A stretch of 64,000 bases of DNA from Sphingorhabdus sp. YGSMI21 (GTDB lineage: Bacteria; Pseudomonadota; Alphaproteobacteria; Sphingomonadales; Sphingomonadaceae). The translations under genes and the position numbers were made by a program. The stretch lies in NCBI RefSeq assembly GCF_002776575.1, contig NZ_CP022548.1, positions 3,487,001 to 3,551,000 of the forward strand, read 5' to 3'. The stretch's first letter is position 1, and each line of letters begins with the position of its first letter. Below the pieces are notes generated by a model. It did not search any database and was not told where the DNA came from. It was given only the letters and a program-made list of their open reading frames with translations. Of this stretch, positions 8,881 to 28,281 are shown one piece after another.

Positions 8881-10431
8881 ATGGCGGGCAGTTTCGGAAT
8901 AGAAGCGGCGCGCGCGGCACTGGACAGCGGCAAGCCGGCGCTGATCTGGCGGCGGCAGGTTGCCGACACCGAAACACCGGTATCCGCTGCGCTGAAGCTG
9001 ATGGAAGATGGCCGCGGTGACTATCTGCTCGAATCGGTTGAAGGCGGCGAGACCCGGGGACGGCACAGCATGATCGGCCTCGCGCCAGATCTGGTGTTCC
9101 GTGCCGATGGCGAGAAAGCCGCGATCAACCCGATATGGCTGCAGGACCGCGACGCCTTTGCCCCGGAAAGCGGCGACAGCCTTTCCGCCTTGCGCAATCT
9201 GGTCAAGGCCTGCCAGATGGACGTGCCGGAAGAATTGCCCCGCGCCCTCGCCTGTCTGGTCGGCTATTTCGGCTATGAGACCATCGGGTTGGTCGAGAAG
9301 CTGCCGCGTGCCCCGCAGTCCGAGCTGGACCTGCCCGACATGCTGTTCGTCCGGCCGACGGTGATCCTGATCTTCGACCGGCTGGCCGATGAACTGTTTC
9401 TGGTGGCGCCCGTTTGGCCCGAGACCGCTGGCGATAGCGAAGCCAAGATCGCTTCGGCGGAAGAACGACTGGACGAAGCGCAGCGCGGGCTGTCTGCCCC
9501 CGTTCGTCCCGAGCTTGTCGCAGGACGGTTGCCGCACACCGAACTGACCGGCTCGAACGATGCCGGACCGAGCGAACCGGAGTTCACGCCCCGGGTCTCG
9601 CCCGAGAAATATGGCGAGATGGTGCTGCGCGCCAAGGACTATATCGAGGCCGGGGACATCTTCCAGGTGGTGCTGGCCCAACGCTTCACCACGCCCTTCA
9701 CCCTGCCGCCGATCGAACTCTATCGCGCCCTGCGCCGGATCAACCCTTCACCGTTCCTGTTCTTCCTCGACCTGCCCGGCTTTGCGCTCACCGGTTCGAG
9801 CCCGGAAATCCTCGTCCGCGCGCGCGACGGCGAAGTCACCATCCGGCCGATCGCCGGCACCCGGCCGCGCGGCAAGAATGCCGCCGAGGACAAAGCGAAC
9901 AGGGACAGCCTGCTTGCCGACCCCAAGGAACGGGCCGAGCATCTGATGCTACTTGATCTCGGCCGCAACGATGTCGGCCGGGTGGCGAGCGCGCACAGCG
10001 TCGAGGTCACCGACAGCTATACGGTCGAATTTTACAGCCATGTCATGCATATCGTCTCCAACGTCATCGGAGAACTGGCACCGGACAAAGACGCACTCGA
10101 CGCCCTGTTCGCGGGCTTCCCCGCCGGCACGGTCAGCGGCGCGCCGAAAGTCCGCGCCTGCCAGATCATCGCCGAACTCGAACCGGAAACCCGCGGCGCC
10201 TATGCCGGCGGCGTCGGCTATTTCTCTCCGGATGGCAGCATGGACAGTTGCATCGTTCTGCGCACGGGTATCGTGAAGGATGGCACGCTGCACGTGCAGG
10301 CCGGCGCAGGCATCGTAGCGGACAGCGATCCGGCCTATGAACTGGCCGAATGTCGCGCCAAGGCGGGTGCGTTGCTGGCGGCCGCGAAAGAAGCGGTGAA
10401 GCGGGCTCAGGATATCGGGTTCGGTCAGTAA
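8881..10431 (+). CDS. trpE: Anthranilate synthase component I
   Basis: 516 aa. With TrpG it makes anthranilate from chorismate and glutamine. The tryptophan feedback element LLES-x10-S is present (Leu49-Ser52 and Ser63). The chorismate-binding core has FALTGSSPEILVR, IRPIAGTRPRG and LMLLDLGRNDVGR. The gene ends in AAAKEAVKRAQDIGFGQ. It lies 7 bases after ppiD and is probably co-transcribed with it. trpG, normally next, is displaced by 3.5 kb of foreign-looking DNA carrying two more degenerate copies of the trpE 3' end. No leader peptide or attenuator was seen. Confidence 0.97.
   Translation: MAGSFGIEAARAALDSGKPALIWRRQVADTETPVSAALKLMEDGRGDYLLESVEGGETRGRHSMIGLAPDLVFRADGEKAAINPIWLQDRDAFAPESGDSLSALRNLVKACQMDVPEELPRALACLVGYFGYETIGLVEKLPRAPQSELDLPDMLFVRPTVILIFDRLADELFLVAPVWPETAGDSEAKIASAEERLDEAQRGLSAPVRPELVAGRLPHTELTGSNDAGPSEPEFTPRVSPEKYGEMVLRAKDYIEAGDIFQVVLAQRFTTPFTLPPIELYRALRRINPSPFLFFLDLPGFALTGSSPEILVRARDGEVTIRPIAGTRPRGKNAAEDKANRDSLLADPKERAEHLMLLDLGRNDVGRVASAHSVEVTDSYTVEFYSHVMHIVSNVIGELAPDKDALDALFAGFPAGTVSGAPKVRACQIIAELEPETRGAYAGGVGYFSPDGSMDSCIVLRTGIVKDGTLHVQAGAGIVADSDPAYELAECRAKAGALLAAAKEAVKRAQDIGFGQ
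10378..10431 (+). repeat. trpE 3'-end sequence, copy 1 (functional)
   Basis: Last 18 codons of trpE including the stop. It is the reference copy for two degenerate repeats at 11444-11500 and 11937-11969. Confidence 0.8.
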
Positions 10432-18033: not shown

Positions 18034-19902
18034 CTAGCCCCCGGCGTTTCTGACCTTGGCAAATATGGTCTCGATCGCTTCGGGATTTTCGATCGTGTTG
18101 GGCATTACGACGTCCTGGCCGTTGGCGATCGCGCGCAACGACGAACGCAGGATCTTTCCGGATCGCGTCTTCGGCAAGGCGGTGACGACATGGATGGTCC
18201 GCACCGATGCAACGGCTCCTATTTCCGAGCGGACATGCGCGATACAGTTTGCCGCCAGCTCGCTTTCGTCCAGCTGCGCAGATGCGACAACAAAGGCGAC
18301 CGGAATCATTCCCTTGAGTGGATCGTCGGCGCCGATCACGGCGCATTCGGAAACCCCCTCCACCTCGGCCAGCGCGCCTTCCATCTGGCCGGTCGACAGC
18401 CTGTGTCCGGCAACATTGATGATATCGTCGGTTCGGCCCATCACATGCATGAAACCATCGACATCGCAGAATCCCGCATCGCCGGTTTCATAATAGCCGG
18501 GATAGGATGAAAAGGCTTTCTGGAAGCCTTCCTCATTGCCCCAGAGGCTCTGGTAGCAACCCGGCGGCAAGGGGCATTTTATGACGATATTGCCGACATT
18601 CCCCTGGGCGACTTCCTCGCCATTTTCGTCCACAACATGAAACCGGTAGCCCGGCACCGGGAAACCGGCGCTGCCAGCCTTTCGCCGCACATCGCCCAGA
18701 CCCAGGCTGGTCGCCAGCGCGGGCCACCCCAGTTCCGTCTGCCACCAGTGATCGATGACCGGTCGACCCAGGCGCTTTTCCAGCCATTTTATCGTATCCG
18801 GATCGGCGCGTTCACCGGCTAGAAACACCGCCCGGAGCGAGGGCAAGTTGCTTGCCGGATAGAGCGCGCCATCCTCGTCTTCCTTGCGAATGGCGCGGAT
18901 GGCGGTTGGAGCGGTGAAAAATACCGAGACCCGGTTTCGCTCGATAACCCGCCAGAATTCCCCGGCATCCGGCGTGCCCACCGGCTTGCCCTCATAGAGG
19001 ACCACGGTGGCACCCGCGAACAGCGGCGCGTAGACAATATAGCTGTGGCCGACCACCCAGCCGACGTCGGAAGCCGCCCAGAAACATTCGCCGGGCTTCA
19101 GGCCGTAAATATGGCGCATGCTCCATTCGAGCGCCACTGCATGTCCGCCATTGTCGCGCACCACCCCTTTCGGCGTTCCGGTGGTGCCCGATGTATAGAG
19201 GATATAGAGCGGGTCGGGGGACATCAGGGGAACGCATTCGGCGGGCTTGGCCTTGGCAAGCTCTTCCGACCAGTCCTGCGCCCAGCCATCGTCGAGGTCG
19301 GCACGCAGAGTCTCGCGCTGGAACAGCAGCACGGCCGGCACCGGGTGCCGGGCCTGCGCCAGACTCTCGACCACCAGCGGCTGGTAGGGAATGACTTTCT
19401 GGCCTTCTATTCCGCAGGATGCGGTGAGCAATAATCTGGGCTCCGCGTCATCGATCCGTTTCGCCAGTTCCGGCGGGGCAAAACCGCCGAACACGACCGA
19501 ATGTATTGCCCCGATCCGCGCGCAGGCAAGCATGGCAAACAGGGTTTGCGGGATCATCGGCATGTAGATGATCACGCGGTCACCCTTCCCCACGCCTTGC
19601 GCCGCGATCATGCCGGCGGTCCTTGCGACCTCCGCCTGCAATTCGCGATAGGTAAATGTCTGCCGCCGTCCGGTAACCGGGCTTTCGTAGATGACCGCAT
19701 TCTGGTCCGCCCTGCCCGCGTCGACATGGCGGTCCACGGCATTGTAGCAACTGTTCAGCTGGCCATCGGGAAACCAGCTGTTGCTGTCCTCGTCCCAGCC
19801 GATAGTCGGCGCTATAATCCAGTCGATTTCCGAAGAGGCTTCCAGCCAGAAACGATCCGGATCGGCGATAGTATCCGCTATGGACTTTTCATATTCATGC
19901 AT
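18034..19902 (-). CDS. prpE: Propionyl/acetyl-CoA synthetase, PrpE-like
   Basis: 622 aa acyl-adenylating enzyme activating a short carboxylic acid (propionate or acetate) to its CoA ester. P-loop YILYTSGTTGTPKGVVRD, adenylate-binding HWWQTELGWPA, YETGDAGFCDVDGFMHVMGR, and the C-terminal catalytic lysine region ALPKTRSGKILRSSLR. VGWVVGHSYIVYAPL and FTAPTAIRAIRKED are shared by PrpE and ACSS3 rather than Acs. It lies 10 bases after the cupin gene, and is the last of a three-gene operon with the TonB-dependent receptor. Substrate is inferred from family. Confidence 0.88.
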   Translation of the reverse strand: MHEYEKSIADTIADPDRFWLEASSEIDWIIAPTIGWDEDSNSWFPDGQLNSCYNAVDRHVDAGRADQNAVIYESPVTGRRQTFTYRELQAEVARTAGMIAAQGVGKGDRVIIYMPMIPQTLFAMLACARIGAIHSVVFGGFAPPELAKRIDDAEPRLLLTASCGIEGQKVIPYQPLVVESLAQARHPVPAVLLFQRETLRADLDDGWAQDWSEELAKAKPAECVPLMSPDPLYILYTSGTTGTPKGVVRDNGGHAVALEWSMRHIYGLKPGECFWAASDVGWVVGHSYIVYAPLFAGATVVLYEGKPVGTPDAGEFWRVIERNRVSVFFTAPTAIRAIRKEDEDGALYPASNLPSLRAVFLAGERADPDTIKWLEKRLGRPVIDHWWQTELGWPALATSLGLGDVRRKAGSAGFPVPGYRFHVVDENGEEVAQGNVGNIVIKCPLPPGCYQSLWGNEEGFQKAFSSYPGYYETGDAGFCDVDGFMHVMGRTDDIINVAGHRLSTGQMEGALAEVEGVSECAVIGADDPLKGMIPVAFVVASAQLDESELAANCIAHVRSEIGAVASVRTIHVVTALPKTRSGKILRSSLRAIANGQDVVMPNTIENPEAIETIFAKVRNAGG

Positions 19903-19912
19903 CGGCAGCAGC

Positions 19913-20308
19913 TTATCCGTTCGACAGCTCGGTTAAAAGAGAATGATCCAATATCGATGTCACATTGTCTTCGTCATCGAGGAAAACGACCGGGCCATGA
20001 TTGGTGAAATAGAGCTCGGTATATTCCGGAAAAGCCGTATGGTCGTGGATAACATCCAGCGGCTCATAGCCATAGGTGCCTTCGAGCGCCACGCCCATGC
20101 GATATTCCATCTTGCCCTTGACCACATAATATTCTCCCGCACCGAGATGTCGGTGTCTGGGAAAAAAGCTGCCTGGCTGGCAACGCAACAACACCGTCCA
20201 TCTTCCCGTTTCCTTGCTGGCAAAGAAAAGCTTGAATTCGATCCCCTCCACCAGATTGGACCAGCCAATATCTTCGGGAGTGGTCAGCAGTTCAGGCACA
20301 ATTTCCAT
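19913..20308 (-). CDS. Cupin, acetylacetone-cleaving dioxygenase (Dke1)-like
   Basis: 131 aa from the ATG at 20308; the longer upstream reading frame runs into the receptor gene and was rejected. A single cupin barrel with RHRHLGAGEYYVVKGKMEYR (His52, His54) and DVIHDHTAFPEYTELY (His88). From memory of the family these three histidines match the 3-His iron site of Dke1, and the C-terminal GPVVFLDDEDNVTSILD also matches Dke1. Such enzymes cleave beta-diketones oxidatively to a carboxylic acid and a 2-oxo-aldehyde. Flanked 22 bases from the receptor and 10 bases from prpE, so the acid product could feed PrpE. Function is inference. Confidence 0.8.
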   Translation of the reverse strand: MEIVPELLTTPEDIGWSNLVEGIEFKLFFASKETGRWTVLLRCQPGSFFPRHRHLGAGEYYVVKGKMEYRMGVALEGTYGYEPLDVIHDHTAFPEYTELYFTNHGPVVFLDDEDNVTSILDHSLLTELSNG

Positions 20309-20330
20309 GGTTAAATCCTGTCTTCTGGGG

Positions 20331-22562
20331 TTAGAAAGTAAGCCGGAGTTCGGCACCATAGGTGGCGCGTTCGCCGTAATAGCGCGGCACGAAACCGAAA
20401 CCGCGCAGGTCGGTCGCGTCGACGATATAGGCCTTGTTGGTGACATTTTTGGCCCAGGCCGCCAGCTCCCAGCCATTGTCCGGATCGGATAGCGAGGCCC
20501 GCAAATTAAGCAGCCCGTAGCCCTCGCCGGAACTGATCAGCGGATCCTCGGCATTATTATAGAATTTCTTGCCGGTATAATTATATTCGGCCCGCCAGCG
20601 CGTTTCGAAGCGCCCGACCGGCACGGTAACCTGGGCGTTGGCCGACAGCGTGAATTTTGGCGCGCCCGGCATGCTGTTACCGGAGAAATCCCGCGGCAGG
20701 CCGGAAACCGGATCAATCGCACCGGACTGGTAATTTTTGAACTCGGCATCCAGAACGCCGAAATTCAGGCCGAGGTCGAGCCAGTTAGTCGGCGTCGCGA
20801 ACGCCTCGACTTCTATGCCCTTGATCTTCGCATCGGCGGCATTGTCGAGGCCCAGGGTTGGCACGGCACTACCCGCCTGTGTGTTGACCGACAGGACCTG
20901 CAGATCGCTGTAATCATAATAGAAGGCGGCGACATTCAGTCTCAGATTGCGGTCGAACAGGGTCGATTTGAAGCCGACTTCGTAGGAAATCAGGGTTTCT
21001 GGATCGACCTGTGTGCGCTCCGCGATATTGGTGATAATCCCGATATTGAAGCCACCAGCCTTGAATCCCTTGTCAACGCTGACATAGGCCAGCACGTCAT
21101 CGGTGACATCATAATCTGCCGAAAGCCGCCAGGAGAATGACTTGTAGGAATCGCTGAGCCGGGCGAATGGTACCAGCGGGATGGGATCGCCATTGGCAAT
21201 ATCGTCATCGAAAAACCCTGAGATCAGGTCGGCCTGATGGGTCGACCGGACCTTGTCGATCGTATAGCGGGCGCCAGCGGTGAGGCGCAACTCGGGCAAT
21301 ACCGAATAGGTTGCCTGGCCAAAGGCTGCATAGGCCTTGTTCTTGCGGGTAGCCTGGGTGATCACCGGCAAGGCGCCCTGGGCGAAGGTCAGTTCACCAA
21401 GCAGATCGGCATTGCTGCGCGCGTCAAAATCCTCGTAGAAATAATAGAGGCCGGCGATCGCATTGAGGGTGCCGTCGTCATAGGAAAGCTGGAATTCCTG
21501 GGTGAACTGTTCGGCATCCGTCAAAAAGGTGATTTCATCGATCCGGAACGGCCCGCCATCGACATCCACGCCATTGTCGACGTCGCTCTTGTCATAGCCG
21601 GTCAGGGAGCGGATCGACCAGTCGCCGAAATCATGCTGCGCGACGAAATTCACGAAGACATTGTCCGAATGATTGCGTGAAGGACCATTGAAATTGAGCA
21701 ACCGCTCGTCGTCGGGGAACGGATCGGTATAGCCGAACAGATCGGCTCCGTTAATCGTGCCCACCGGCTTGTTTTCCAGATAGTCGCTGCGATCCCGGCC
21801 GCCGCCGACGGTCAGCCGGAGATCGGTATCGGGGCCGGGGCGCAGGCGGAAAATCGCGCGCGCCGCAGCTTCGTCGACATTGATCGCGTCCGTACCGTCG
21901 AACCGGTTGAATTTTTCGCCATCCCGTTTGCGGACCATGCCGGCGACCCGGACCGAGAATCCGTCGGTGATCGGCAGCGATGCGGCCACCTCGCCTTCAA
22001 ACAGGCTGAAACGGCCATAGCCGAAACGGGCATTCCCCTCGAACCGGTCGTCTGGCAATTTGGAGAAAAACTGGATCGCACCGCCAGTGGCATTCTTGCC
22101 GAACAATGTGCCCTGCGGGCCACGGACGACTTCTATCCGTTCCAGATCGAACAGCGAGAAAATCTGGCTGCCGGTGGATGCCACCACGACGTCATCGCGA
22201 TACACGCTGATCGGACCGATCGATGAACTGTTGAAATCATTATTGCCGACGCCGCGAATGAATATATTCGGGACGCCACCGAACGTCTTGATCTCAAGAT
22301 TGGGGACCTGGTCGCCGATCGAAAGGCTGTTGGTGAACCCGGAGTCGGCAATCATCTGCGTATCGAAGGCGGACACGGACACCGGCACATCCTGCAAATT
22401 CTGCGCCCGCTTCTGCGCCGTGACCACGATGACATTGACGCCGCCGCTCTGCTCGTCGGTATCGACATTGTCCGGCACGGCCTGAGCCAGCGCGGTGCCG
22501 TGGGCAAGCAATGAAACCGATGCAAGGGATGCGACTATGGTTGCGCGACAAATATTGTTCAT
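20331..22562 (-). CDS. TonB-dependent outer-membrane receptor
   Basis: 743 aa. Signal peptide ending in HGTALAQA. The TonB box region is NVIVVTAQKRAQNLQDVP, followed by a plug domain (about 55-165) with IFIRGVGNNDFN and IEVVRGPQGTLFGKNATGG. A beta-barrel follows, ending in the terminal aromatic motif RATYGAELRLTF. It belongs to the large sphingomonad family of receptors thought to import aromatic or other carbon substrates rather than siderophores. First gene of the operon with the cupin and prpE; 237 bases separate it from the divergent AraC gene, the likely regulator. Confidence 0.95.
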   Translation of the reverse strand: MNNICRATIVASLASVSLLAHGTALAQAVPDNVDTDEQSGGVNVIVVTAQKRAQNLQDVPVSVSAFDTQMIADSGFTNSLSIGDQVPNLEIKTFGGVPNIFIRGVGNNDFNSSSIGPISVYRDDVVVASTGSQIFSLFDLERIEVVRGPQGTLFGKNATGGAIQFFSKLPDDRFEGNARFGYGRFSLFEGEVAASLPITDGFSVRVAGMVRKRDGEKFNRFDGTDAINVDEAAARAIFRLRPGPDTDLRLTVGGGRDRSDYLENKPVGTINGADLFGYTDPFPDDERLLNFNGPSRNHSDNVFVNFVAQHDFGDWSIRSLTGYDKSDVDNGVDVDGGPFRIDEITFLTDAEQFTQEFQLSYDDGTLNAIAGLYYFYEDFDARSNADLLGELTFAQGALPVITQATRKNKAYAAFGQATYSVLPELRLTAGARYTIDKVRSTHQADLISGFFDDDIANGDPIPLVPFARLSDSYKSFSWRLSADYDVTDDVLAYVSVDKGFKAGGFNIGIITNIAERTQVDPETLISYEVGFKSTLFDRNLRLNVAAFYYDYSDLQVLSVNTQAGSAVPTLGLDNAADAKIKGIEVEAFATPTNWLDLGLNFGVLDAEFKNYQSGAIDPVSGLPRDFSGNSMPGAPKFTLSANAQVTVPVGRFETRWRAEYNYTGKKFYNNAEDPLISSGEGYGLLNLRASLSDPDNGWELAAWAKNVTNKAYIVDATDLRGFGFVPRYYGERATYGAELRLTF

Positions 22563-22799
22563 TTCTTTTCCTTCTCCTGAACGGTGAGCCGTCTTGAGTG
22601 CGGCTATCCAGTTGCCCGTTTACTAGCCGGCGCAGGCTTGTTGTTTCTTGCTTGGGAACGGCGTCATTTTTGTATTCAGGTGAACCGACAGGTGCAAAAT
22701 TGTTCCAGAGGGACACCAAACTTGGCAATTTGCGCCAGAAAACGTGACCGTCTTGCGCATGCCGCGCGGTCGTCGTAGCATCGACGCAGGAGAGGGAAT
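22563..22799. promoter_or_regulatory. Divergent control region, receptor operon / AraC gene
   Basis: 237 bases between opposing start codons. Related sequences GTGCAAAATTGTTCC (about 22690) and TTGGCAATTTGCGCC (about 22720) face each other as imperfect inverted repeats (core CAATTTTGC / CAATTTGC) and could be AraC-type half-sites. An SD (GGAGAGGG) precedes the AraC ATG. Promoter elements were not resolved. Confidence 0.35.
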
Positions 22800-23774
22800 A
22801 TGAAGATAATTGAGGAAGAGAGCTGGCAATCGGCCAGCCTGCCTCCGACCAGGCAATTGCCCGGTTTTCAGGAAGTGCTCGACCGCACCCATTTTCATTG
22901 GGACCTGAAATCGGATCTCAATGACCGATATATAGCCGAAGTGCGCCGGCGGGCCGTGAACGACTATATGCTGACCCATATCGTGGCGGATCCGGTAACC
23001 GGATTCCGTTCGATGGACGATGTCAAGAAAAGCAATGACGCCTATTTCTGCCTGCTGTTTTTCACGCAGGGCGAATGTCTTCTCGAGCAAGGCGCCAATG
23101 AAACCGTCGTCACCAACGGCAAGATCGCGATCTGGGACAGCACCCGTCCGGCGAAATTCCAGAACACCAGCCGGTTGACCCAATATTCGATATTGATCCC
23201 GCGCGACAATGCCAAGATCATGATTCCCGGAATAGAGGATATGTGCGGGCTGAGCGTCGATGGCACCAAGGGGCTCGGATCAATCCTGCACTCCCATCTG
23301 GTGCAAATCCACCAGGCCATAGAACTGGTCGAACCGGAAGACCGGCCGGCCGTGTTGCGGGCCACGGTTGAACTGGTTGCGGCGGCCTTCAAACCGGAAA
23401 GCGCCAACCGCTCGAGCACCGCTTTCCGGCAGGCCGTGCTGAACAGGGTACAGGAATATATAGTGGCCAATCTCGGTGAACCCGATCTTTCCCCGGCAAC
23501 GGTGGCAGCGGCGTTCAAATTCAGCCCGCGCTATCTGCACCGGCTGTTCGAGGAATCCGACGAGAGCGCTGGTAGCTGGATTCGCAAGCGGCGCCTGCAC
23601 GCCGCCAAGGCCGATCTCGGTGACGCGGGCAATAGCCGGTTGTCGGTCACCCAGATCGCGATGCGGCGCGGTTTTGCCGATGCTTCCCATTTCAGCCATG
23701 CGTTCCGGAAAGAATTCGGACAGTCGCCACGACAGTTCAAACAATCCTGCCGGAGCAGTGATCCGCGCGCCTGA
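22800..23774 (+). CDS. AraC-family transcriptional regulator
   Basis: 324 aa. The N-terminal AraC-binding-like domain (about 20-200, FeaR/NahR-associated type) precedes a C-terminal double HTH (about 215-320): PATVAAAFKFSPRYLHRLFE and the signature ending VTQIAMRRGFADASHFSHAF then RKEFGQSPRQFK. It sits between the two arms of the catabolic locus and probably activates both in response to its substrate. Confidence 0.93.
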   Translation: MKIIEEESWQSASLPPTRQLPGFQEVLDRTHFHWDLKSDLNDRYIAEVRRRAVNDYMLTHIVADPVTGFRSMDDVKKSNDAYFCLLFFTQGECLLEQGANETVVTNGKIAIWDSTRPAKFQNTSRLTQYSILIPRDNAKIMIPGIEDMCGLSVDGTKGLGSILHSHLVQIHQAIELVEPEDRPAVLRATVELVAAAFKPESANRSSTAFRQAVLNRVQEYIVANLGEPDLSPATVAAAFKFSPRYLHRLFEESDESAGSWIRKRRLHAAKADLGDAGNSRLSVTQIAMRRGFADASHFSHAFRKEFGQSPRQFKQSCRSSDPRA

Positions 23775-23889
23775 GCCCATCGCTCCGTTAACAGTTCGCC
23801 CAGAATCAACTTTGTTGCCCCGCTGACACAAGCGGACTGGCAAGCGTTCGCCTATTTCCCACAGTCAGAAAAATAAAGAGGATGGGATT

Positions 23890-24675
23890 ATGGCAGGCCG
23901 ACTGCAAGACAAGGTCGTATGTATAACCGGCGCGGCGCAGGGCATTGGCGCCGGCATCGCCGAAGCCATGGCGCAGGAAGGCGCTCGGATCATTATCGGC
24001 GACGTCAATGACGAAGGCGCCGGGGCGCTCGCTGCGCGCATCGGGGCAACCGCTCTGCATCTGGACGTGTCCTCGCCGGAGGACTGGCAGGCCATGGCAG
24101 ACCATGTCGCCGGGCATTTCGGCAAGCTCGACATTTTGGTTAACAATGCCGGACTGGAACTGGTAAAACCGATGCAGGACCATAGTCTGGCGGACTGGCG
24201 CAAGGTCATGTCCGTAAACGTGGACGGCATTTTTCTGGGCTGCAAGACGCTCGAGGCGATGCTCCGCGAATCGGGCAAATCCGGTTCCTCCGCCTCGGTG
24301 ATCAATATTTCCTCGATCGCCGGTATCGTCGGCTACCCGGATCAACTGGCCTATAATACGTCGAAAGGTGCTGTGCGCCATATGTCGAAAAGCCTGGCGA
24401 TCGAATGGGCGGCGCACGGCGACGCGATCCGCTGCAATTCGATCCATCCCGGCTGCATCCGCACCCCGATGCTGGAAATGGCGGTGGAAGGATGGGTCGA
24501 GAACGGATCGGTACCGGCCTATGATCCATGGACGGCGATCGCGGCGCTATGTCCGCTGAACCGGGTCGGCATGCCGGAAGATATCGCCATGGGCGCCGTC
24601 TATCTCGGCTCCGACGAATCGCGCTTTGTCACCGGCATCGAACTGGTGATCGACGGCGGGTGGGTGGCCCGATGA
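23890..24675 (+). CDS. Short-chain dehydrogenase/reductase
   Basis: 261 aa classical SDR. Cofactor motif TGAAQGIG (13-20) with Asp38 after the second strand (IIIGDVN), favouring NAD(H); NNAG (85-88), catalytic Ser142 in NISSIAG, and YNTSK (Tyr155, Lys159). C-terminal GIELVIDGGW. Likely oxidises or reduces an alcohol/ketone in the pathway. The SD AGAGGA precedes the ATG. The stop overlaps the E1 alpha start by 4 bases, placing it first in the dehydrogenase operon. Confidence 0.92.
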   Translation: MAGRLQDKVVCITGAAQGIGAGIAEAMAQEGARIIIGDVNDEGAGALAARIGATALHLDVSSPEDWQAMADHVAGHFGKLDILVNNAGLELVKPMQDHSLADWRKVMSVNVDGIFLGCKTLEAMLRESGKSGSSASVINISSIAGIVGYPDQLAYNTSKGAVRHMSKSLAIEWAAHGDAIRCNSIHPGCIRTPMLEMAVEGWVENGSVPAYDPWTAIAALCPLNRVGMPEDIAMGAVYLGSDESRFVTGIELVIDGGWVAR

Positions 24676-25655
24676 GCAGCAACCACAGCAAGCGCCTCTG
24701 GATGTATGCCCAGATGGTCAAGAGCCGCCATTTCGAGGATATGATCAAGCCCGCCTATTTCGAAGGCAAGACTCCGGTCTTCAATATGGCGAAGGGCCCG
24801 CTGCCCGGCGAGATGCATCTGTCCGACGGGCAAGAGCCTTGCGCCGTCGGCATATGCGCCCATTTGCGCCCCGATGATGTCGTCACCGCCACCCACAGGC
24901 CGCATCATATCGCGATTGCAAAGGGGGTCGACCTCAACGCCATGGCTGCCGAGATTTTCGGCAAGAAGGACGGGCTGGCCGGCGGACGCGGCGGCCATAT
25001 GCACCTGTTCGATCCAGCGGTGAATTTTTCCTGCTCGGGCATTATCGCCCAGGGTATGGGGCCGGCTGTCGGTGCCGCCATGGCCGCCCGGATGCGGGGC
25101 AGCGATGCCGTCGCTGTTGCTTTTCTGGGCGAAGGCGCGGCCAATCAGGGGGCTTTTCACGAAAGCCTCAATCTCGCGTCAGTATGGAAGGCCCCGGTGG
25201 TATTTGTCATCGAGGACAATAGCTATGGCATTTCCGTTCCCAAAAGCGCCTGCACAGCGGTTGCCAGCAACGCCGATAGAGCAGCGGGCTATGCCATGCC
25301 CGGCCATCATGTCGGCGGCAATGATCCCGACGCCATATATGAAGCGGCAGGGATCGCGATTGAACGGGCGAGGTCCGGTTCCGGCCCAAGCCTGATCGAG
25401 ATTGAGACCAGCCGGCTGGAGGGCCATTTCATGGGCGATCCGGAAGGCTATCGACCGAAGGACGAAGTCAGGCGGCTGAAGGAAATCGATCCCATACCCG
25501 CCTACCGGACCCGGTTGCTCGAAGCGGGATTCGAAGAGAGTGAGCTGGATCGCGCGGAAAGCGAAGCCCGCGGCCTGGTCGACCAGGCCTTCTCCTTTGC
25601 CCGCAGCAATGATTATCCCGAACCCAAGGAGGCTTTTGACCATGTCTTTGCCTGA
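24672..25655 (+). CDS. Thiamine-dependent dehydrogenase E1 component, alpha subunit (acetoin/2-oxoacid type)
   Basis: 327 aa. Binds thiamine diphosphate through GEG (153-155, in FLGEGAANQGAFHESLN) to DN (182-183). HRPHHIAIAKGVDLNAMAAE and GGRGGHMHLFD match the acetoin dehydrogenase AcoA/PdhA class. Decarboxylates or cleaves a 2-oxo or acyloin substrate and transfers the acyl group to lipoyl. The ATG at 24672 was chosen for its ATGA overlap with the SDR; the upstream open frame lies inside that gene. Its end overlaps the beta subunit by 14 bases. Confidence 0.93.
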   Translation: MSSNHSKRLWMYAQMVKSRHFEDMIKPAYFEGKTPVFNMAKGPLPGEMHLSDGQEPCAVGICAHLRPDDVVTATHRPHHIAIAKGVDLNAMAAEIFGKKDGLAGGRGGHMHLFDPAVNFSCSGIIAQGMGPAVGAAMAARMRGSDAVAVAFLGEGAANQGAFHESLNLASVWKAPVVFVIEDNSYGISVPKSACTAVASNADRAAGYAMPGHHVGGNDPDAIYEAAGIAIERARSGSGPSLIEIETSRLEGHFMGDPEGYRPKDEVRRLKEIDPIPAYRTRLLEAGFEESELDRAESEARGLVDQAFSFARSNDYPEPKEAFDHVFA

Positions 25656-26691
25656 TCAAACCATCGAAAAACCCGCTGCAGAACGCAGGCTGACCATCGC
25701 CAAGGCAATGAGCGAGGCTCTGGCACAGGAAATGGAGCGCGATCCGTCCGTTCTGGTGATGGGCGAGGATATCGGGAAAATGGGCGGCGTCTTTGGCACG
25801 ACCACCGGACTGTTCGAAACCTTCGGCGAAGATCGCGTCCGCGACACGCCGATTTCCGAAACCGCCTTTATCGGTGCGGCCGTCGGCATGGCCGCCTCTG
25901 GATTGCGACCGGTCGTGGAACTGATGTTCGTCGATTTCTTCGGCGTCTGCATGGACGCGATCTACAATCTGGCCGCCAAGCAAAGCTATTTTTCCGGCGG
26001 CAAAGTCTCCTGTCCGATGGTGCTGATGACCTCTGTCGGCGGCGGCTATGGCGATGCTGGCCAGCACAGCCAGTGCCTCTACGCCACATTCGGACATTTG
26101 CCAGGCATGAAGGTGGTCATCCCCTCCAACGCCCATGATGCCAAGGGCCTGATGCTCTCTGCCATCCGCGACGACAATCCGGTGATTTTCATGTTCCACA
26201 AGGCCCTGCAGGGCATGGGCTGGCTGGGAACCGTTGCCGGCTCGATCAACCACACACCGGAAAGCGAATATTGCGTGCCGATCGGCAAGGCCTCGGTCGT
26301 TCGCGAAGGAAGCGATATTACCATCGTCGGCCTCGGCGCCACGGTGCACCAGGCGCTGGCGGCGGCCGGAAGGCTCGACGAGGCGGGGATCAGCGCCGAA
26401 GTCGTCGATTTGCGGACGATAGCGCCACTGGACCGGGAATCGATCCTGGCCTCGGTCACAAAAACCGGCCGGCTGCTGGTGGTCGATGATGATTATCTCA
26501 GCTTCGGCATCGGCGCGGAAATCATCGCGACAATATGTGAAACATTGCCTGGCCCGCTGAAATGCCCGCCGCAACGTATCGCCCACCCCGATATTCCCAT
26601 TCCCTTCACGCCGGTAATGGAACATTTCCTGCTGCCCGATGCCGGGAAGATCGAGAGCAGGGTCATCGCCATGATGGGAGAACAGAAATGA
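25642..26691 (+). CDS. Thiamine-dependent dehydrogenase E1 component, beta subunit
   Basis: 349 aa. Pairs with the alpha subunit. Contains VLVMGEDIGKMGGVFGTTTG, ISETAFIGAAVGMAASGLRP, the transketolase pyrimidine-binding domain, and the C-terminal domain with EVVDLRTIAPLDRESI. The SD AAGGAGG (25626-25632) lies within the end of the alpha gene and fixes the ATG at 25642. Resembles AcoB/PdhB subunits; specificity cannot be told from sequence. Confidence 0.94.
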   Translation: MSLPDQTIEKPAAERRLTIAKAMSEALAQEMERDPSVLVMGEDIGKMGGVFGTTTGLFETFGEDRVRDTPISETAFIGAAVGMAASGLRPVVELMFVDFFGVCMDAIYNLAAKQSYFSGGKVSCPMVLMTSVGGGYGDAGQHSQCLYATFGHLPGMKVVIPSNAHDAKGLMLSAIRDDNPVIFMFHKALQGMGWLGTVAGSINHTPESEYCVPIGKASVVREGSDITIVGLGATVHQALAAAGRLDEAGISAEVVDLRTIAPLDRESILASVTKTGRLLVVDDDYLSFGIGAEIIATICETLPGPLKCPPQRIAHPDIPIPFTPVMEHFLLPDAGKIESRVIAMMGEQK

Positions 26692-26918
26692 CCGATATAT
26701 TGGTGCCGCAAGGCCAGTGGGAGCCGGATCAGGAAGCCGCCCTCGCCACCTGGCTCTATGGGGAAGGCGAAACCGTTCAGGAAGGCGTGACCGTCGCCGA
26801 AATCATGGTCGAGAAAACCAGCTTTGAAATCCCTGCCCCGGCCAGCGGTGCCCTATCCATCACTGTGGCAGAGGATGAAATCGTCACTCCCGGGCAAGTG
26901 GTCGGCTCGATAGGATAA
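26688..26918 (+). CDS. Free-standing lipoyl-domain protein (no E2 catalytic domain)
   Basis: 76 aa, just one biotin/lipoyl-attachment fold: TWLYGEGETVQEGVTVAEIM, then VEKTSFEIPAPASG with Lys43 as the predicted lipoylated residue, ending VTPGQVVGSIG. An ordinary E2 has 400 or more residues with a peripheral-subunit-binding domain and an acyltransferase core; both are absent, and the gene is not frameshifted, because it overlaps its neighbours cleanly (ATGA with E1 beta, TAATG with the lipoate ligase). It probably acts as a small swinging-arm carrier for the E1. Biotin rather than lipoate cannot be excluded, but the next gene is a lipoate ligase. Confidence 0.88.
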   Translation: MTDILVPQGQWEPDQEAALATWLYGEGETVQEGVTVAEIMVEKTSFEIPAPASGALSITVAEDEIVTPGQVVGSIG

Positions 26919-27607
26919 TGGCCTCGACGATGGAACGCGATCTCGTCCGCCGCCTGGCGCGTGCGATTTCGCCCGGCACGCCGATCGAGACTTGTTCGGG
27001 ACAGCGGGCGATCGATGACGAGGATGCGCTGATCGACAGGGTCGCCACCCAGCCGTCCGGATCTTCCTGCCTCAGGATCTGGGAGAACCGGAACTGCCTA
27101 GTGACGACGCGTCCCGTTGCCAGACGGGCAGGCTTCGCCGAGGCGGCGGACGCCAGCGCCAGATCAGGCTGGCCCGTCCATGTCCGCTCGTCCGGCGGCT
27201 CGACCGTTATCCACCGGCCCGGCATATTGAACATCACTCTGGCGGTTGCCGCGGGCAATCAGCCGGTGCAGCCCGAAGCCAGCTATCAAGGCCTGATCAG
27301 ATTGCTGCAGGACGCTTTGGGGAAACTGTATATCGATGCCACTGTCGGTCCGGTCGAGGGGTCCTATTGCGACGGCAGCTATAACCTGTGCCTGAACGGC
27401 AGAAAGATCGCCGGAACCGCATCGCGCATCGTCCGCCGACAGGGCCAGACCGCCTATATCTGCCACGCTTCCATAGCGGTTTACGGCTCGCCCGAGCGCG
27501 ATATTGCCCTGATCCGCAAGTTCGAGCGGGAATTGGGGCTACGCCATAGATATGCGATAGACAGCCACACGACCCTTGTTAACATGATGGAAGCAATCGT
27601 CGCGTGA
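26918..27607 (+). CDS. Lipoate-protein ligase A family protein
   Basis: 229 aa of the LplA/BPL fold. Recognisable: LRIWENRNCLVTTRPVARRA, a modified substrate loop HVRSSGGSTVIHRPG (family form RRSGGGAVYHD), DGSYNLCLNGRKIAGTASR with the catalytic Lys163, and a closing ICHASIAVYG. Attaches lipoate, probably to the carrier encoded just upstream, with which it shares one base (TAATG). The altered loop suggests a divergent, possibly dedicated ligase. Last gene before a terminator at 27620. Confidence 0.82.
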   Translation: MASTMERDLVRRLARAISPGTPIETCSGQRAIDDEDALIDRVATQPSGSSCLRIWENRNCLVTTRPVARRAGFAEAADASARSGWPVHVRSSGGSTVIHRPGILNITLAVAAGNQPVQPEASYQGLIRLLQDALGKLYIDATVGPVEGSYCDGSYNLCLNGRKIAGTASRIVRRQGQTAYICHASIAVYGSPERDIALIRKFERELGLRHRYAIDSHTTLVNMMEAIVA

Positions 27608-27619
27608 GGAGGCCGGATT

Positions 27620-27663
27620 GCGGCTTTTCGCGAAATACGTCTGTCACCAAGCCGCGTTTTTTT
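27620..27663 (+). terminator. Terminator of the dehydrogenase operon
   Basis: GCGGCTT (27620-27626) pairs with AAGCCGC (27649-27655), followed by G and seven T (27657-27663). The loop is long (22 bases) and contains a smaller CGCGAAATACG hairpin. 13 bases past the lipoate-ligase stop. Confidence 0.7.
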
Positions 27664-27717
27664 CCAAATGCTTTGCGCCATCCCATCGGAAGAGAATTTC
27701 GGGCGATCAATCCAGGA

Positions 27718-28281
27718 TTATTTCGAAATTCCGATCCAGCGGGGTACATCGTGGCAAAACTGCTCGTAGGCAGCGCCAAAATTTTTGCCCAGATGCGCTT
27801 CCTCGATCCGGACCTGCGCATGGCAGGCTAGCGTGAATACAAGCAATGCAACCCAGCCCCACCAAATGCTGGCACTCAAGGCGATGCCGAGGCCGAGCAA
27901 TATCATCCCGGCGAATATGGGGTTGCGGCTGAATTGGAACAGTCCATGCCTAACGAACAGCGGCGCGTCTCCGTCGCGCACACCCACGCGCCAGGCCCGG
28001 CCCATCTGTATTTGGGAGACAATCACTATAACCGTGCCCGCCACCGCCAGCAGTGCACCGCCCGAGGCAAATCTGGTAGCAGGCTGCGTCGCAGCCAGCC
28101 CGCTCGCGACTCCCAGAACGGCGATACTGATCGCAAATAGAAGCCCGGCCAAACGCTGTCTGCCCTTCGCCGCGCCAAATGCCCAGGCCCTGTCGCCGGT
28201 CGAACGGGCTACGGAATAGCCGCGCCAGACCGAAGCAAGGAAGACAATAATCAACGCGGTAACGGGTACAGCCTGTATCAT
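27718..28281 (-). CDS. Integral membrane methyltransferase, isoprenylcysteine/phospholipid methyltransferase family
   Basis: 187 aa with about five membrane segments. The C-terminal signature LFQFSRNPIFAGMILLGLG followed by RIEEAHLGKNFGAAYEQFC is that of the PEMT/ICMT family, which uses S-adenosylmethionine. Its ATG overlaps the stop of the cation transporter (ATGA), so it shares the metal-regulated promoter. Such genes often accompany CDF or copper transporters; the methylated substrate is unknown. Confidence 0.85.
   Translation of the reverse strand: MIQAVPVTALIIVFLASVWRGYSVARSTGDRAWAFGAAKGRQRLAGLLFAISIAVLGVASGLAATQPATRFASGGALLAVAGTVIVIVSQIQMGRAWRVGVRDGDAPLFVRHGLFQFSRNPIFAGMILLGLGIALSASIWWGWVALLVFTLACHAQVRIEEAHLGKNFGAAYEQFCHDVPRWIGISK

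Follow-up and report, generated by a model that had tools for sequence, protein, structure and literature searches.

A five-gene operon with a free lipoyl carrier

The window analysed here is a stretch of 64,000 nucleotides from Sphingorhabdus sp. YGSMI21 (contig NZ_CP022548.1, positions 3,487,001 to 3,551,000), and this report concerns five same-strand genes within it (23890–27607, numbered from the first base of the window) that overlap successively by 4, 14, 4 and 1 bases. They encode a short-chain dehydrogenase/reductase (SDR), the alpha and beta subunits of a thiamine pyrophosphate (TPP)-dependent E1 dehydrogenase, a free-standing lipoyl protein (designated LIP in the analysis) and an LplA/LipL-like protein (designated LIG):

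23890..24675, + strand: SDR oxidoreductase, 261 amino acids (Pfam adh_short_C2 PF13561 and PF00106)
24672..25655, + strand: E1 alpha, TPP-dependent dehydrogenase, 327 amino acids (Pfam E1_dh PF00676, 242 bits)
25642..26691, + strand: E1 beta, 349 amino acids, ATG at 25642 (Pfam Transket_pyr PF02779 and Transketolase_C PF02780)
26688..26918, + strand: LIP, lipoyl carrier, 76 amino acids (Biotin_lipoyl PF00364, 36.8 bits, cut-off 22.1)
26814..26816, + strand: codon of LIP Lys43, predicted site of lipoyl attachment
26918..27607, + strand: LIG, candidate LipL-like octanoyl/lipoyl transferase, 229 amino acids (LplA-B_cat, 63.0 bits, cut-off 27)
27368..27370, + strand: codon of LIG Cys151, predicted acyl-enzyme nucleophile (invariant in 82 of 82 alignment rows)
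27404..27406, + strand: codon of LIG Lys163 (likewise invariant in 82 of 82 rows)

The attachment lysine of LIP is invariant in all 81 aligned rows. A Pfam scan covering 18034–28281, where ten proteins are encoded, revealed neither an E2 nor an E3; the locus has a split-carrier architecture, and an E2 core is absent from it. The original prediction for this DNA, namely five overlapping genes comprising an E1, a free lipoyl carrier and its own attachment enzyme, with E2 and E3 missing locally, is borne out by the coordinates and the Pfam matches. It had overlooked Cys151 of LIG as well as the adjoining genes for an AraC-type regulator, a TonB receptor, a cupin and a PrpE-like CoA ligase.

Distribution of the E2 core among related loci

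Genome contigs were scanned with a profile made from an E1 alpha alignment, which gave 266 relatives; the best 80 were used, so that distant members are under-sampled. Among these 80 the closest named relatives are Sphingomonadaceae (e.g. Sphingorhabdus sp. 109), and the genera represented include Stutzerimonas, Pseudomonas, Marinobacterium, Marinobacter, Zobellella and Halomonas, besides Rhodobacterales, Hyphomicrobiales, sphingomonads and others. The census started from 95 loci (L numbers below), and removal of five duplicates (L052, L054, L055, L056 and L060) left 90 distinct ones. Also excluded from scoring were L098, L116, L118, L119 and L088 (contig ends), L104 (its sequence changes within LIP and was judged to be a join in a metagenome-assembled genome), L031 and L032 (E1 alpha only partly inside the stretch; both with a core) and L040 (LIG without E1); L033 was scored as core-present, its core lying just outside its stretch.

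In this hidden Markov model census a stand-alone E2 core was found in 58 of the 81 scorable loci and was absent from 23, the window included. LIP and the core share one frame in none of the 81, and an E3-like motif occurs in 2 of the 90 distinct loci (L069 and L070), the window not being one of them; homologous clusters thus do not consistently carry a full E2 and E3, in keeping with what had been predicted. The statement that the system is without an E2 core is true of the window and is not a rule of the family: because 58 of the 81 loci carry the core as a separate gene, the core-less state is probably a derived one of the window's branch. The finding is weaker than first noted in that the family is not E2-free, and stronger in that it extends to a family with a split E2, present in numerous genera, whose core is missing repeatedly, together with a corresponding difference next to the lipoyl lysine.

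LIG was also searched for in 298 genomes of the host's family: 16 matched, 14 of them (host included) with a good intact match, and in 13 of these 14 E1 genes lie near LIG. The exception is L040, where a lone LIG homologue (9801–10301) has no E1 or LIP match within ~9 kb. E1 alpha, E1 beta, LIP and LIG occur in several arrangements across neighbourhoods; in L031, L036, L038 and L039 the open reading frame of 228–283 amino acids that follows LIP consists of PF00198 alone, i.e. a stand-alone E2 core, and the same holds for L032. One genome (G119, matched to Croceicoccus sediminis) has both an E2-less cupin-type cluster (L035) and a separate core-bearing one (L038).

Plasmid relatives were examined for 12 of the first 40 records listed (711 matched) and for 4 of 15 listed (641 matched). 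The order on plasmid pR1CP1 of Rhodococcus opacus is E1-E1-LIP-core-LipA, and a dedicated LipA occupies there the position held by LIG elsewhere (L126, 7992–12076). Haloarchaeal plasmids carry E1 alpha, E1 beta and a free lipoyl domain, with a core in Natrialba and none found in Haladaptatus. A second, distant E1 subfamily partly repeats the split: a core is present in Paraburkholderia, a CoA ligase stands in its place in Azospirillum (L142), and L141 and L143 have no neat gene order. No lipoyl protein was found near the E1 of L134 or L141 (the latter has a core-like gene ~4 kb off), while L143, for which no core was found, has its lipoyl protein ~4 kb away from E1. Full E2s were seen beside more distant E1s (41–44% identity) in L132, L133 and L135, L133 having E3 and LipA as well. 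The stretches of R. opacus, the haloarchaea, L130, L140, L142 and L041 gave no LIG match. No earlier description of a bacterial split lipoyl/core system was recognised in the accessible parts of the open-access literature searched.

Integrity of the cluster

By the Nei–Gojobori method, dN/dS against three relatives (L027, L046 and L048) is 0.02–0.20 for the eight genes tested, the TonB receptor being outside the test, and is highest for LIG (0.15–0.20); against a fourth relative (L049) dS is saturated in five of the eight genes. The distance from the LIP stop codon to the start of the LIG domain is 63–125 bases in 19 of the 20 same-strand E2-less loci and 336 bases in L066. There is no sign of decay in the cluster. 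Because the frames are intact, dN/dS is low and core-less E1 alpha-E1 beta-LIP sets recur in 23 of the 81 loci, LIP is not a piece of a frameshifted E2. These results contradict the scenario, raised with the original prediction, of a lipoyl domain cut by a frameshift from a lost E2 core, and uphold its view that neither neighbour of the carrier is broken.

Changes in core presence and E2s elsewhere in the genomes

In the E1 tree of 95 rows, core presence changes at least five times among the 81 scored rows; a careful E1 tree of the window's 27-row clade has four state changes. A single origin of the E2-less state in this clade is not rejected on E1 (approximately unbiased test, p-AU 0.080) and is rejected on LIG (p-AU 0.012). 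Change counts by themselves are blind to loss versus gain. Since outgroups have the core as well, its absence from the window's lineage would most simply be due to deletion.

The host genome (G000; 4.06 Mb, two contigs, rated 100% complete) has three E2 cores, each in a frame of 426–461 amino acids, five clear E1_dh matches and a weak one, and one LipB (presumably, as judged from its motifs), one GcvH and one LipA over cut-off. The names pyruvate dehydrogenase (PDH; L043 and L044), branched-chain 2-oxoacid dehydrogenase (BCKDH; L045) and SucB (L042) were assigned by us to the housekeeping systems from size and context. The window E1 alpha is 37% identical to that of L041, 33% to that of L044 (PDH-like) and 32% to that of L045 (BCKDH-like). 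As in the host, three E2s are present in each of the genomes G089 and G243, all in frames longer than 400 amino acids. Among ten other E2-less genomes, G301, G302, G306 and G307 hold E2 matches in frames shorter than 400 amino acids (243 in G307, 311 in G306, 364 in G301, plus fragments), so these four may still have a remote core.

Residues flanking the lipoyl lysine

Within the window's clade, the position after the lipoyl lysine of LIP (K+1) is invariably Val in the eight core-bearing rows, and each core-less row has Thr, Ser or Ala there; position K-2 is Asn or Ser in the former and Val, Arg, Tyr, Ile or Glu in the latter. Columns that fully separate the two core states number 2 of 76 in LIP (27 rows; 2 of 73 with 29 rows), 0 of 652 in E1 and 1 of 189 in LIG, the last being a highly variable column. 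When 11 lineages were taken as units (462 labelings), at least one separating LIP column was obtained with 15 labelings and at least two with 3. Across all 81 rows, K+1 is Ala (21), Ile (21) or Val (16) in core-bearing loci and Thr (9), Ser (7) or Ala (7) in core-less ones.

At K+1 the lipoyl domains of the host E2s have Val (SucB-like) or Ala (PDH- and BCKDH-like). The Thr, Ser or Ala of core-less LIPs would thus be nearer to the Ala of the PDH- and BCKDH-like E2s than is the Val of core-bearing LIPs, and the flank difference may be read as a retargeting of LIP, most simply to the E2 of PDH or BCKDH.

LIG as a candidate octanoyl/lipoyl transferase

LIG consists of a single catalytic domain of the LplA/B fold. 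Its matches to LplA span the first ~195–205 residues of the latter; the C-terminal accessory domain of LplA is missing from LIG, and no search was made for an LplB encoded on its own in another part of the genome. Cys151 aligns with a Cys of the solved structures 2p5i and 2p0l, which we take to be LipL-type, this Cys presumably being the nucleophile. Because a Cys stands at the LipL/LipM-type position and the protein has a single domain, the original name of LplA-like lipoate ligase probably implies the wrong mechanism. From these residues and the fold we infer an acyl-enzyme chemistry, with either a GcvH relay or octanoyl-acyl carrier protein (octanoyl-ACP) as donor. The score with model NF047857 is 53 bits (cut-off 450).

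No relatives of LIG were found in viral contigs. Homologues scoring 167–195 bits are annotated by PGAP as 'hypothetical protein' in Roseibium, Sphingomonas, Mameliella and Paracoccus plasmid records. One survey, in the part available to us, describes Proteobacteria as having LipB only and never LipM (PMC10332631); LIG would be a relay enzyme of LipL type in bacteria that have LipB and suggests a likely function for the proteins now called hypothetical.

Neighbouring genes and the substrate of E1

The operon is flanked on its upstream side by the following genes:

22800..23774, + strand: AraC-family regulator, upstream of the operon (Pfam scan)
20331..22562, - strand: TonB-dependent receptor, divergent (Pfam scan)
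19913..20308, - strand: Cupin_7 protein, relative of an acetylacetone-cleaving enzyme (Pfam scan and solved-structure matches)
18034..19902, - strand: PrpE/Acs-like acyl-CoA synthetase, 622 amino acids (propionate--CoA ligase model, 689 bits, below the cut-off of 955)

Counterparts of these genes are concentrated at E2-less loci. An SDR of the window type (>300 bits) was found in 18 of 23 E2-less vs 3 of 58 core-bearing loci, the AraC-family regulator (≥45% identity) in 17 vs 1, the TonB receptor (≥40% identity) in 16 vs 3 and CoA-ligase-like genes in 16 vs 5 (any match) or 11 vs 3 (≥50% identity). For the cupin the raw counts are 20 of 22 vs 3 of 57, L047 and L078 being omitted (contig ends).

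Among solved structures the window cupin matches best 2o1q (2e-19), whose label is putative acetyl/propionyl-CoA carboxylase alpha subunit, and 3bal (4.7e-19), an acetylacetone-cleaving enzyme; 2,4'-dihydroxyacetophenone dioxygenase is a weaker match (5e-4). The window E1 alpha is 42% identical to one that adjoins an annotated acetoin-type E2. A butanediol-dehydrogenase-like motif occurs in 25 of the 90 distinct loci (the L079 copy matches the solved 6ie0 with 285 bits), and the gene separates E1 alpha from E1 beta in L079 (11017–12099), L080, L101 and L102. A glucose-methanol-choline (GMC) dehydrogenase occurs in 44 of the 90, the copy in L073 being nearest to solved fructose dehydrogenase, and L081 has a pyrroloquinoline quinone (PQQ) alcohol dehydrogenase. 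Sigma-54 activators, which we take to resemble AcoR, were checked in L038 and L081 and are annotated in L128; GAFTGA as a marker of such activators identified only two loci and was abandoned. The core-bearing locus L114 has an ExaC acetaldehyde dehydrogenase (905.5 bits, cut-off 900) together with a CoA ligase. No gene of the butanediol-dehydrogenase-like, GMC, PQQ alcohol dehydrogenase or ExaC kind was seen next to those of the window. An acyloin or dicarbonyl substrate fits these neighbouring genes, the hint at the window itself being the cupin.

Proposed mechanism and alternatives

Substrate channelling by a tethered swinging arm has its textbook example in the lipoyl-dependent dehydrogenases. 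The product of the operon, we propose, is a dehydrogenase that depends on thiamine and cleaves acyloins or dicarbonyls, with a diffusible lipoyl carrier in place of the E2-tethered arm. With Cys151 forming an acyl-enzyme, LIG would place octanoate or lipoate on Lys43 of LIP, and housekeeping LipA would finish the lipoyl group. E1 would cleave an alpha-hydroxyketone or vicinal dicarbonyl, freeing one half as an aldehyde or acid and loading the other as acyl-dihydrolipoyl-LIP. In most scored relatives the acyl group would be passed to CoA by the E2 core encoded separately beside LIP; in the window's lineage LIP may have acquired a new target, the likeliest being a housekeeping E2 (that of PDH or BCKDH), with housekeeping E3 reoxidising it. 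The SDR, cupin and PrpE-like ligase may produce the substrate and activate the leftover acid. Borrowing of E2 and E3 is the most likely ending, and the chain as a whole (acyloin/dicarbonyl-cleaving E1, diffusible LIP, LipL-like LIG, housekeeping E2/E3) is, in our judgement, on the probable side of an even balance.

Several results weigh against this chain. LIG scores 69 bits with the LipL-type model NF053589, whose cut-off is 400. The best NCBIfam model for the window E1 alpha is that of PDH E1 alpha, below cut-off, and the E1 sequence appears to leave the choice between acyloin and 2-oxoacid undecided. The link between the cupin and core absence is not upheld in independent contrasts, which are few and mostly without difference; the cupin as a cause of core loss was rejected on this ground. 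As to the lysine flanks, the Thr and Ser of core-less LIPs differ from the Ala of the housekeeping E2s, two E1 columns also separate the core states in part (0.87 and 0.81), the pattern was spotted before testing, with the 11 lineage units drawn from the tree by ourselves, and independent pairs, three of three in the same direction, are too few for significance (P = 0.25). The K-2/K+1 signature is moreover limited to one clade, being absent from the Halomonas pair (K+1 Ala, like Stutzerimonas), the haloarchaeal pair and the second E1 subfamily. Finally, the substrate of E1, the chemistry of LIG and the acyl acceptor are steps that we infer.

In one alternative, which we regard as possible though doubtful, the system would be E2-independent: the acyl (or redox) load of LIP would go to a new acceptor, several branches of the window's lineage having arrived at this independently with K-2 and K+1 reshaped to fit. 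With a similarly modest probability, the acyl group might pass to a non-E2 acceptor or be hydrolysed to an acid that the adjoining CoA ligase re-activates, the arm serving for oxidation. The enrichment of CoA-ligase-like genes at E2-less loci, such a gene directly after LIP in Azospirillum L142 with no E2 core in the stretch, and the altered K-2 and K+1 in all core-less lineages of the clade speak for it. However, the ligase can also be explained by the aldehyde or acid half of an acyloin: since core-bearing L114 pairs a ligase with an aldehyde dehydrogenase (ExaC), the link need not mean acid release and re-activation. The ligase counts are also phylogenetically non-independent, and no conserved acceptor candidate was seen besides ligase, cupin and SDR. 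Were the E2-independent reading to hold, it would add another kind of lipoate-dependent system, with LIG as its own relay enzyme, to the five classical complexes and sHdr.

That E1 acts on an ordinary 2-oxoacid, with E2 and E3 borrowed and the acyloin link an accident of neighbourhood, seems unlikely to us, although PDH models are the best NCBIfam matches of both E1 subunits and an aminotransferase gene lies near the plasmid relative L136. Haloarchaeal PDH relatives, for which the parts of the reports available mostly identify no substrate and place one paralogue in isoleucine degradation (PMC8305020, PMC3235422), point the same way; the recurrence of butanediol-dehydrogenase-like and GMC genes among relatives, and ExaC in one, does not. 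That the locus is what decay or misassembly has left of a normal complex is very improbable: the E2 core is indeed missing where relatives have one, but frameshift, remnant and artefact were all rejected, given the 23 core-less loci and the dN/dS values of three comparisons, and the LIP-LIG spacing is kept as well. Biotin as the cofactor of LIP, with LIG as a biotin ligase, is extremely improbable. PF00364 spans both cofactors, LIG matches BPL_LplA_LipB weakly (22.9 bits, cut-off 21), and PGAP names some homologues biotin/lipoyl-containing protein. This candidate was rejected because a lipoyl synthase gene (LipA, 322 bits, cut-off 310) follows the homologous genes on R. opacus pR1CP1. Biotin carriers have a Met-Lys-Met attachment motif, whereas the flank in the window LIP is Glu-Lys-Thr.

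Comparison with known lipoyl systems

The acetoin dehydrogenase complex (aco clusters, e.g. of Pelobacter carbinolicus; PMC3543383) has E1 alpha/beta and a lipoyl function in common with the window, and the Pelobacter cluster, as far as its description was available, has its own LipA, LipB and thiamine genes. Relatives of the window cluster share sigma-54 activators, butanediol-dehydrogenase-like genes and a nearby LipA or ThiC with it. Unlike in that complex, E2 is split here, the lipoyl domain and acyltransferase core being separate genes or the core being absent; the full E2 (lipoyl domain, subunit-binding domain and core) is absent from the window, and so is an E3 belonging to the cluster.

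Bacillus subtilis LipL is described, in the portion of the source accessible to us, as an octanoyl/lipoyl-[GcvH]:E2 amidotransferase, and human LIPT1 as acting in a lipoyl relay (PMC7253636). LIG resembles both in fold family, in a Cys ahead of the Lys as in 2p5i/2p0l and in having a single catalytic domain. It differs from LipL in its low model score, in adjoining one dedicated carrier gene and in belonging to a genome with LipB.

In sHdr systems, according to the parts available of PMC6067878 and PMC10332631, LbpA is likewise a single lipoyl-domain protein with a modifying enzyme, the sLpl(AB) ligase, in the cluster; LbpA, however, is GcvH-like, whereas the window has an E1 dehydrogenase. 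No hdr, lipS1/S2 or GcvH proteins were found among the ten proteins scanned, and sHdr membership was rejected for lack of any hdr or lipS1/S2 gene there. The earlier comparison with LbpA and GcvH therefore stands as to its logic and not as to gene content. Like LIP, GcvH is a diffusible lipoyl carrier between enzymes; LIP does not match GCV_H by Pfam, pairs with E1 and not with P/T proteins, and the host GcvH lies elsewhere in the genome.

Archaeal single-domain lipoyl proteins have been noted as a class, as far as the source could be consulted (PMC3904984). The operons of Natrialba and Haladaptatus resemble the window in their E1 alpha-E1 beta-free lipoyl domain order with a separate core or none, and differ in lacking a LIG match and in an E1 alpha identity of 54%. 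An unattached lipoyl domain was reportedly described in haloarchaeal 2-oxoacid dehydrogenase (OADH) operons by van Ooyen and Soppa in 2007.

A natural split of arm, core and E1 in many genomes, with core-less branches too, would show that tethering is dispensable. It would also be a compact setting for asking which E2 reads which lipoyl lysine, and the window's branch is a chance to learn where the load of the lipoyl arm goes.

Other loci

A second E1 alpha-E1 beta-lipoyl-only triad was found in the host genome (G000:C1 ~725887–728096; L041:6887–9096). It belongs to the distant E1 subfamily, has no E2 core or LIG match in its 19-kb stretch, and has acyl-CoA dehydrogenases and a Rieske oxygenase as neighbours. 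A 'hypothetical' protein on a Sphingobium sp. TomTYG64 plasmid (L141, 340–1035) matches the stand-alone E2 core with 273 bits. A Sphingobium sp. RAC03 plasmid (L130, 3619–11253) carries a distant E1 pair, with no E2 core found beside it, a lipoyl-only protein, two SDRs, a PQQ dehydrogenase and a cupin from the same family as the window's (121 bits); the SDR/cupin association thus recurs in another E1 subfamily. In Parvularcula (L066:5892–9450) the E2-less cluster adjoins genes that, by eye, are 3-hydroxyanthranilate dioxygenase-, ACMSD-, RidA- and aldehyde dehydrogenase-like.

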